Part shown: positions 11,937 to 37,460 of the stretch, in pieces | Layout: every line of letters starts with the position of its first letter | Numbering within the stretch: the first letter of the stretch is position 1 | Assembly (NCBI GenBank): GCA_946055775.1 | Contig: CAMGHE010000007.1 | Location: forward strand, 1-37,515 | Direction of reading: 5' to 3' | Source of the DNA: an uncultured Bacteroidales bacterium | Lineage (GTDB): Bacteria > Bacteroidota > Bacteroidia > Bacteroidales > Bacteroidaceae | Length of the DNA: 37,515 nucleotides | Position numbers and translations under genes: made by a program | The notes under the pieces: generated by a model | What the model saw: the letters and a program-made list of their open reading frames with translations, nothing else | Told to the model about the DNA's origin: nothing | Databases searched by the model: none

Positions 11937-16007
<4,071 letters not shown>

Positions 16008-16060: not shown

Positions 16061-16197
16061 ATAATCTTCTGTTTTTTGCGCGAAGGTCAGAACGGAAAGT
16101 TTACAGATTTTTAACGAAGCGTGCCGTCTGAAAGCCGTTTCGGACGCAGAAATATACGATTGCGCAAACCGGAGACACGGTTTGGGCGATAGAAATT

Positions 16198-16235
16198 ACA
16201 GTTTGGGCGACCGGAAAACCGGTCGCCCAAACTGT
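16198..16235. repeat. 17-bp perfect hairpin in repeat element copy A
   Basis: Arms 16198-16214 and 16219-16235 are perfectly complementary with an AAAA loop. The core TTGGGCGACCG is identical in copy B, while three outer base pairs (AGT/ACT here, GAC/GTC in B) differ on both arms. It could also end GH2 transcription on the plus strand. Confidence 0.85.
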
Positions 16236-16255
16236 TAACCCCCTTTTAGACAAAG

Positions 16256-16282
16256 AAAAAAGGGCTCGCGAGCGGGCCCTTT
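16256..16282 (-). terminator. Intrinsic terminator in repeat element copy A
   Basis: On the minus strand AAAGGGC (16282-16276) pairs with GCCCTTT (16265-16259) and runs into TTTTTT (16261-16256). It probably also terminates the acyltransferase gene, whose stop is at 16406. The equivalent structure is kept in copy B with different bases. Confidence 0.75.
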
Positions 16283-16296
16283 GCTATTGTGCACTG

Positions 16297-16328
16297 CAAA
16301 GATACAACAATGAGAGGCGAAATGCAAA
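16297..16328 (-). promoter_or_regulatory. Minus-strand promoter TTTG-N20-TATCTTTG in repeat element copy A
   Basis: TTTG (16328-16325) and TATCTTTG (16304-16297) on the minus strand have 20-bp spacing. The terminator stem starts only about 15 bp after the -7 box, so a transcript would be about 35 nt unless read through. The same promoter is conserved in copy B. Confidence 0.6.
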
Positions 16329-16348
16329 TCGGCCTCCGCAGACGATTC

Positions 16349-32316: not shown

Positions 32317-36901
<4,585 letters not shown>

Positions 36902-36953: not shown

Positions 36954-37138
36954 AGCCCCCTTCCACCGCCCGTATCTTGCCAAAAATCGCCCCGTTTTGG
37001 GTGCTGACAGCGCTTCAAACGCGCGCTCTTGGTTAAGAAAATTTAGGATTGATTAAGACTGTATTAACATTTCGCGCGGCAGACGCGGGCACAAAACCAA
37101 CAACCCTGGGAAGCCGAAACACGATTTGGGCGATAGAA

Positions 37139-37182
37139 AATACGACTTGGGCGACCGTTTTTTCGGTCGCCCAAGTCGTATT
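37139..37182. repeat. 19-bp perfect hairpin in repeat element copy B
   Basis: Arms 37139-37157 and 37164-37182 are perfectly complementary around T6. The core TTGGGCGACCG equals copy A, and the outer GAC/GTC pairs replace AGT/ACT of copy A with pairing kept. Confidence 0.85.
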
Positions 37183-37198
37183 AGGCCGAAAAGGTACG

Positions 37199-37219
37199 AA
37201 AAAAGGGGCTCAAGGCCCC
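37199..37219 (-). terminator. Intrinsic terminator in repeat element copy B
   Basis: On the minus strand GGGGC (37219-37215) pairs with GCCCC (37209-37205) and is followed by TTTTTT (37204-37199). It has the same place as the terminator in copy A, with different stem bases. Confidence 0.7.
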
Positions 37220-37238
37220 CCTATCTCTGCTTCTATTG

Positions 37239-37270
37239 CAAAGATACAACGTCAGCGCGCGAAATCCAAA
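37239..37270 (-). promoter_or_regulatory. Minus-strand promoter TTTG-N20-TATCTTTG in repeat element copy B
   Basis: TTTG (37270-37267) and TATCTTTG (37246-37239) on the minus strand, with the same 20-bp spacing as in copy A. The terminator stem begins about 20 bp further on. Confidence 0.6.
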
Positions 37271-37384
37271 TCTTAATTAACCTCTCTTTACATTCCGCCT
37301 CTGAGGGGGTGAGTGTGAAGAGAAGTTAATTTTCTGTGATTACTGTCCGGCAAATTGTCTCGATGTATTCTGCCGTCAGTTGTT

Positions 37385-37460
37385 TCCATAGACATGCCAC
37401 CGGGGCGCAGCTTAGTAGGGCCATGTCCATTGACATGGCACCGGGGGCGCAGTTTAGTAG
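37385..37460. repeat. 41-bp-period tandem repeat with internal palindrome
   Basis: Units 37385-37418 and 37426-37460 share TCCAT(A/T)GACATG(C/G)CACCGGGG and CGCAG(C/T)TTAGTAG, differing at three positions plus one inserted G. Between and across them GCCATGTC (37420-37427) pairs with GACATGGC (37432-37439) around CATT. Confidence 0.8.

Follow-up and report, generated by a model that had tools for sequence, protein, structure and literature searches.

The two matching intergenic segments of the window (the whole analysed stretch of 37,515 nucleotides from an uncultured Bacteroidales bacterium) are, in the reading we favour, members of a genus-specific REP/MITE-type family whose non-coding repeats lie dispersed between genes, with a frame and a phasing that are new in comparison with the families considered below. 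We assign a probability of about 0.55 to this reading as a whole, in which the copies are terminator repeats resembling REPs and MITEs and their array is probably bound by a protein. The family is dispersed and intergenic, it retains a frame within which a word changes with complementarity kept, its units are exactly phased, one pair of copies has dispersed recently, and an insertion sequence (IS) lands in the elements.

A composite element in two copies

The sequence-only reading had aligned two segments, each downstream of a GH2 gene, and both statements hold. The segments align at 16176-16330 and 37120-37272, the element's own strand being minus in both, and the genes at 11943-16007 and 32366-36901 encode GH2 beta-galactosidases (PF02836, E 1.1e-78 and 8.7e-78, respectively). 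GH2 vicinity is no rule for the family, since further copies adjoin other genes. The hairpins had also been described correctly: the arms within 16198-16235 and 37142-37179 share the core TTGGGCGACCG/CGGTCGCCCAA, three outer pairs are changed on both arms between the copies, and the second hairpin (16259-16282 and 37205-37219) pairs with different bases. The promoter, its terminator and an extra same-word unit 21 bp from the hairpin had been missed in each copy. On the minus strand the element thus runs from the promoter through a short leader, an intrinsic terminator (GC hairpin plus U6), a linker and the long hairpin to a further unit (R1 and R2 are the models defined below):

16176..16330, minus strand: copy 1, element core (promoter, terminator, array); R1 match, E 3.2e-39
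16297..16328, minus strand: copy 1, promoter TTTG-N20-TATCTTTG; motif search of the window
16256..16282, minus strand: copy 1, predicted intrinsic terminator, hairpin 16259-16282 plus U run 16256-16261; from the sequence
16198..16235, no strand assigned: copy 1, long hairpin, minus unit 16198-16210 plus plus-strand unit 16223-16235, starts 25 bp apart; R2 match 16189-16241 (minus), E 9.7e-16
16177..16189, minus strand: copy 1, direct unit TCGCCCAAACCGT, 21 bp off the hairpin unit; 13-base unit pattern and spacing
37120..37272, minus strand: copy 2, element core; R1 match, E 1.5e-42
37239..37270, minus strand: copy 2, promoter TTTG-N20-TATCTTTG; motif search of the window
37199..37219, minus strand: copy 2, predicted intrinsic terminator, hairpin 37205-37219 plus U run 37199-37204; from the sequence
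37142..37179, no strand assigned: copy 2, long hairpin, minus unit 37142-37154 plus plus-strand unit 37167-37179; R2 match 37133-37185 (minus), E 2.4e-15
37121..37133, minus strand: copy 2, direct unit TCGCCCAAATCGT, 21 bp off the hairpin unit; 13-base unit pattern

The motif TTTG-N20-TATCTTTG, which we take to be the -33/-7 promoter type of Bacteroidota, occurs twice in the window (0.06 expected, at most one mismatch), both times within the copies. Judged by its sequence, the second hairpin with its T6 is the predicted intrinsic terminator for this minus-strand promoter. The same order recurs in the genome of the window, G000 (an assembly of 2.2 Mb, 84.7% complete), and in a second genome of the genus, G029: TTTG and TAnnTTTG are each present in 58 of the 59 aligned copies, and the first terminator, which like intrinsic terminators in general combines a GC-rich hairpin with a U tract, has its U run at a length of 5-7 in 55/59. 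The long hairpin has poorer tracts on its two sides, with 0 T of 6 after it in 18 copies, 1-3 in 18 and 4-5 in 23, and with only 0-2 A of 6 before it in 44/59. Due to these often poor flanks the long hairpins of G000 and G029 would be weak intrinsic terminators alone, and the good intrinsic terminator of these copies is the first one. By eye, loci of G002, G005 and G044 have a good U tract at the long hairpin. The leader from the start to the first terminator varies between copies; since it is not conserved, we see in the composite a component of an insulating cassette rather than a small RNA gene.

Distribution, phased units and placing

The proposal that the two segments belong to a larger family was borne out by a covariance model search. 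The model R1, built from four G000 copies sharing a strict pattern, matches at least 52 times in G000, at least 52 times in G029 (up to 52 candidates being scored per genome), 48 times in G014 and 0 to 10 times in other genomes, and 15/58 genomes of the genus match at E 0.001. Elsewhere these counts overstate the array family, as several of the loci best matched by R1 have promoter and terminator without array (by eye; e.g. L021, L022 and L034). We also used a frame model, R2, with 53 columns, made from 16 hairpins chosen for complementarity, in which the script had partly fixed the AC, GA, TC and GT ends. At E 0.01, 16/58 genus genomes match R2, including G056, whose only match is weak, whereas G014 gave no R2 match; at this threshold up to 100 candidates were scored per genome and both strands of a palindrome were counted, so the match numbers of R2 are not copy numbers. 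Among 301 genomes of the family (E 1e-4, up to 19 candidates scored per genome) R2 matched 6 genus genomes and, with single matches, 4 genomes of other genera. When 84,980 named species genomes were searched for the canonical hairpin, Bacteroidales bacterium SUG481 (JALEZQ01) was the one assembly with matches, in 48 stretches, apart from an actinobacterial stretch that we take as chance.

In line with the earlier statement that no known RNA family could be recognised, Rfam gave no match at gathering score across the window, and an E-value search at copy 1 returned seven sub-threshold matches, taken as chance. Copy 2 had no match in plasmid and phage records, and the one hairpin match among viral contigs lies within an open frame and is likewise attributed to chance. 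No earlier description of the repeat family was found in the open-licence PMC literature.

In the core unit a 9-bp word is set in a constant GTNNTTNCNGTC-like frame, and one unit of the array is inverted. In G000 the 13-base unit pattern TCGCCCARRYYGT was found at 172 places (83 + 89), its reversed control at none. Among the first 100 of these 172 copies, 95 lie in arrays and 5 are single; same-strand neighbours are spaced by 21 bp in 39/41 cases and by 42 bp in 2/41, opposite-strand neighbours by 25 bp in 23/24 and by 46 bp in 1/24. The long hairpin is formed by one inverted and one direct unit, and more direct units follow. Relatives keep the frame AC-N9-GACNG-N6-CNGTC-N9-GT with other 9-bp words inside: GCACTGACT, AGCCGTCCC and AGCCGGCCC in G005, GGCGGGATA in G002, CTTATGCCC and AGTAACCCC in G026, GTAGTACTT and GTAGTCCCC in G044, GAGCCAACT in G041 and CCAGGCTTT in G052, while G000 itself has a minor word, CCTGGGACT or CCAGGGACT. 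Within a species, either one main word or a few words are used; outside G000, G029 and G014 they were seen at one to six loci per species. Near-uniformity is limited to the word that predominates in G000 and G029 (tens of copies, outer letters varying). Of 29 loci taken from other species, 5 had no hairpin and 1 was filtered out; with loops of 11 to 13 allowed, all but one of the remaining 23 have a 12-base loop between 13-base arms. When 18 offsets were tried in the 46 orientations of these 23 loci, the direct unit stood at offset 21 in 11/11 rows with at most four mismatches, one place being counted twice.

Two divergent kinds of array were seen. Loci of G014 (e.g. L157-L168) have units AACAA-N9-TTGTT at 21 bp with promoter and terminator retained; several words alternate within one array, and by eye the first two units of several copies are only partly paired. 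In G029 a second class of 21-bp array without promoter or first terminator is found (L178:1010-1080 and L188 near 1030), in one case with the near self-complementary word TGTAAGCGTTACA; G000 has the promoter type at those sites.

None of 85 copies in G000 and G029 overlaps a called gene. The placing count covers all 52 G000 matches, including 5 partial ones, and 33 of 48 G029 pattern loci, the other 15 having no promoter motif within the searched stretch; gene calls came from a rough codon model, which left one side blank at many loci. The array-side gene turns its 3' end to the element in 40 of the 56 copies for which such a gene was called, whereas the directions of the promoter-side gene are even (31 and 30). 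With both sides called, the neighbours of 37 copies are convergent in 12, tandem in 18 and divergent in 7. Convergent placing is more marked in 13 other species (24 best-match loci examined), where 12 of the 21 hairpin loci with both neighbours called are convergent, 8 tandem and 1 divergent, mostly without the promoter part, and by analogy this convergent placing matches the sites of bidirectional terminators. Ten proteins encoded beside arrays in G002, G005, G044 and G057, considered as candidate partners of the arrays, are ordinary enzymes or belong to no family. One HU-like DNA-binding protein is encoded beside an array of G057 (L019:1608-2018).

Covariation and competing explanations

The compensated pairs had earlier been attributed to selection on structure and not to recent copying. 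Pairing is indeed kept despite base change. In 59 of 64 copies of G000 and G029, aligned by sequence (L083, L085, L086, L087 and L088 were left out as partial model matches), 893 of 944 cells are paired (94.6%), compared to 88.7 (sd 0.45, 0/500 as high) in shuffles that ignore the relatedness of the copies and to 37.6 and 37.7 for one-column slides. For the four variable outer pairs the figure is 221/236 cells, with several different complementary words. A between-species set, which had been picked for complementarity, has 59 cells with both-sided change versus 15 shuffled and 96.5% paired cells versus 72.0, but its pairs with both-sided change (10 vs 8.0) and further pair types (22 vs 20.2) are not outstanding.

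Selection for RNA structure, however, does not account for a unit that stands outside the hairpin. In 58 of the 59 copies (L080 is cut at a contig end) the direct unit equals the arm at position 9 in 54 (31.4 expected) and at position 10 in 52 (32.8 expected), with no tracking at position 8 (32, 30.5 expected) and position 11 (29, 30.8 expected). Since this unit, although unpaired, tracks the arm at half of the four variable positions, RNA structure alone is insufficient for the compensated pairs. Together with the exact 21-bp spacing and with L081, L082 and L084, whose 5' arm is of one word and whose 3' arm is of another, this calls for a change in the DNA itself, in addition to RNA selection or in its place; such a change may come from unit copying, template switching or a binding protein. 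The exclusion of recent copying stands for the two copies of the window, not for all, L081 and L084 being 97% identical.

A family of structured non-coding RNAs, i.e. a small RNA in many copies that is transcribed from the promoter and whose hairpins are selected as RNA, would agree with the compensated pairs in both hairpins and with the constancy of promoter (58/59 for each motif) and U run (55/59). We nevertheless regard it as unlikely, because the long hairpin is located past the terminator, the leader before the terminator is variable, and by eye loci of G005, G002 and G044 have the hairpin array without promoter or first terminator; the tracking by the unpaired unit and the persistence of mismatched arms in L081, L082 and L084 point in the same direction. 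The array could also be a set of transposase-binding sites at a relic transposon end, with an enzyme that follows the word, for which Tn7- and Tn402-like ends offer a comparison. Several evenly spaced 21-bp sites, one of them inverted, and the recent dispersal of one pair (L081/L084) are what such ends would leave. By eye, however, the outer flanks fall into several subfamilies around a core common to all: subfamily A has GATAGAAAACTC at both ends in direct orientation, B has palindromes of ~45 bp at both ends, and C and D have other flanks, with no common terminal inverted repeat seen among them. As searches for PF01797 and PF03050 also met no autonomous copy, we consider this origin improbable.

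Species-specific words, inverted pairs and a placing at gene ends further recall the marks favoured in DNA uptake, and in Neisseria inverted pairs of such words (DUS) double as terminators (PMC3049150). Uptake marks would be many single words, also in coding DNA, and would need no exact array spacing; here 95 of the first 100 copies lie in arrays, leaving 5 single ones, and 172 copies are few for an assembly of 2.2 Mb, which makes this explanation very unlikely.

We favour dispersed terminator repeats with a probable protein-binding array. The phased 21-bp units, one of them inverted, allow the DNA strand and any transcript to form the long hairpin, and this hairpin may end transcription (in both directions) or serve as an insulator where genes end. 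The units would be binding sites for a DNA-binding factor that follows the word, and they are probably read by a protein, the element being tolerated or useful at gene ends. Copies may spread non-autonomously, via an enzyme in trans or by recombination, and words may be evened out within a genome by unit copying. In most of the G000 and G029 copies examined the array lies in a larger composite, in which a promoter firing straight into a terminator would be part of an insulating cassette.

The usual dispersed repeats of bacteria are one decaying sequence. Here the frame stays, the whole word is swapped between species, and the phase is exact. With the main word in addition common to tens of copies in G000 and G029, this pattern calls for either a homogenising mechanism or a co-evolving reader. 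A bolder reading, which we put forward tentatively and hold to be rather unlikely, would see a system of chromosomal sites throughout the genus, in which the frame is fixed and the 9-bp word can be exchanged. Each species would have its own word or words, placed at tens of gene ends and arrayed with a phase of exactly two helical turns. A fast-evolving DNA-binding reader would end transcription there or mark intergenic DNA, and would also guide the IS to safe sites. If true, bacteria would have their own equivalent of terminator arrays that are read by a protein, in which the word and its reader evolve together.

Spread, insertion sequences and related repeat systems

The repeats are dispersed, non-coding and present in many copies, as MITEs are, and they are mobile as judged from one recent pair and four sites empty in G029. 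L081 and L084 are 97% identical across 402 bp in unrelated surroundings, with no target duplication seen. At 20 comparable sites of G000 and G029, 14 are filled in both, 4 are empty in G029 (L072/L186, L065/L189, L045/L194 and L078/L118, the ends not being clean) and 2 have an array of the other class in G029 (L064/L178 and L051/L188). No clean empty site with an element-made duplication was found among these 20 sites, where the spacers fail to align. No transposase or binding protein was linked to the elements. The Y1 transposase domain PF01797 is present in 28/58 genus genomes, with no match among four candidates in G000, from which it may be missing because of the 84.7% completeness, and with none in G005, G026, G044 and G052. 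G029 has two PF01797 genes, one of them ~1 kb from an element, and by eye the surroundings of the latter have no likeness to the element.

The 16-base IS end GTAACTACTCAGCTAT occurs 22 times in G000 and never lies more than ~55 bases from the end of a contig, which is what an insertion sequence in many copies would leave if it had broken the assembly. Twenty of the 22 adjoin pieces of the element, by motif and by eye, L236 and L240 being the exceptions; the probability of this by chance is ~3e-16 if an assumed 13% of the genome is intergenic. The adjoining pieces are array halves, downstream halves and the D-type upstream block, and four pairs of IS ends join element half to element half with an exact 8-bp duplication. 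As an almost exclusive landing place of this IS in G000, the elements shape where mobile DNA settles, and IS-bearing elements help to explain the fragmented assemblies of such genomes. G000 contig ends bearing the IS are, for example, L047, L237, L074, L239, L241, L043, L248 and L073. At least one IS end GTAACTACTCAGCTAT is also present in G029 (L122), and 13 stretches of viral contigs have the 16-base IS end, with one match each. Duplications of 8 bp would fit IS66, a candidate for the landing IS that was not adopted; its two gene matches in G000 (PF03050) are on contigs without an IS end.

BOX repeats of the pneumococcus are composed of modules of about 40-60 nt. According to the available excerpts, BOX (PMC3049150; 125 elements in one genome) is modular and intergenic like the element, with a middle module that is absent or multiple, but its module lengths are different, its sequence is unrelated and the excerpts report no 21-bp phasing. 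SPRITE, also of the pneumococcus and described in the same source, resembles the element in being dispersed near gene 3' ends with a terminator-like stem of 18 bp and a T-rich tract, in its confinement to near relatives and in having no clear target duplication (PMC3049150). With 30 copies in another phylum, it differs in that the excerpts tell of no phased unit array or exchangeable word (PMC3049150). BrickBuilt of Porphyromonas gingivalis (PMC4596501; 19 copies in one strain) belongs to the same order and is likewise an intergenic MITE with leader, tail, tandem units and promoter elements. Its repeats are contiguous 23-nt units, AGAYCATARTATCCTCTCRTRTG, flanked by IS5-family-like terminal inverted repeats, and the excerpts tell of no hairpin-making inverted unit (PMC4596501); the units of our element stand at 21 bp and are of other sequence than AGAYCATARTATCCTCTCRTRTG.

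REP, BIME and REPIN sequences with their RAYT (PMC3733652, PMC3116915, PMC8266576) are, as excerpted, high-copy and palindromic, mostly downstream of genes and of mixed orientation, as is the element, and ISPpu9 is located in REPs (PMC8450116), again as excerpted. By these partial descriptions each REP unit is a stem-loop of its own, tagged by an unpaired GTAG or CGTC, and there is no 21-bp phased array, whereas our hairpin requires an inverted unit pair and the frame has no GTAG. The TGTC of the frame resembles a CGTC variant noted in the excerpts but lies within the paired stem. A PF01797 gene flanked by the repeats, as in the REP/RAYT system, was found in none of G000, G005, G026, G044 and G052. 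The Correia elements of Neisseria (PMC10969869) are also small and dispersed and bring their own promoters, but they are from another phylum and have terminal inverted repeats, with no unit array told of in the excerpts (PMC10969869), and the TAACTGA repeats of Beggiatoaceae are, from what the excerpts give, heptamer repeats that do not resemble the element. Judged by these descriptions, as far as available, none of the compared systems (SPRITE, BOX, BrickBuilt, REP, Correia) shares frame, word or phasing with the element.

Further repeats were seen nearby. The sequence GTCAATGGACATGG (window 37421-37434, minus strand; around 37380-37460) makes up the core of a different palindromic repeat, which is also dispersed, with 23 exact copies in G000. 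Also in the window, CCGGACAGTAAT (37339-37350, minus strand; one match versus 0.27 expected) resembles one end of yet another repeat, noticed by eye next to other loci, e.g. in L124 around 2120-2230. In L083, at about 600-770, a short repeat with GGTGTGTCA...TGACACACC ends is inserted in the terminator hairpin of a G000 copy of the element, the hairpin being whole in the G029 copy (L116); this repeat or its like forms stretches of ~160 bp with 93-99% identity in several loci. An array of ~72-bp repeats, ACGACAACAGGAACAACAATG, at L141:3253-3807 of G029 is unrelated to the element.
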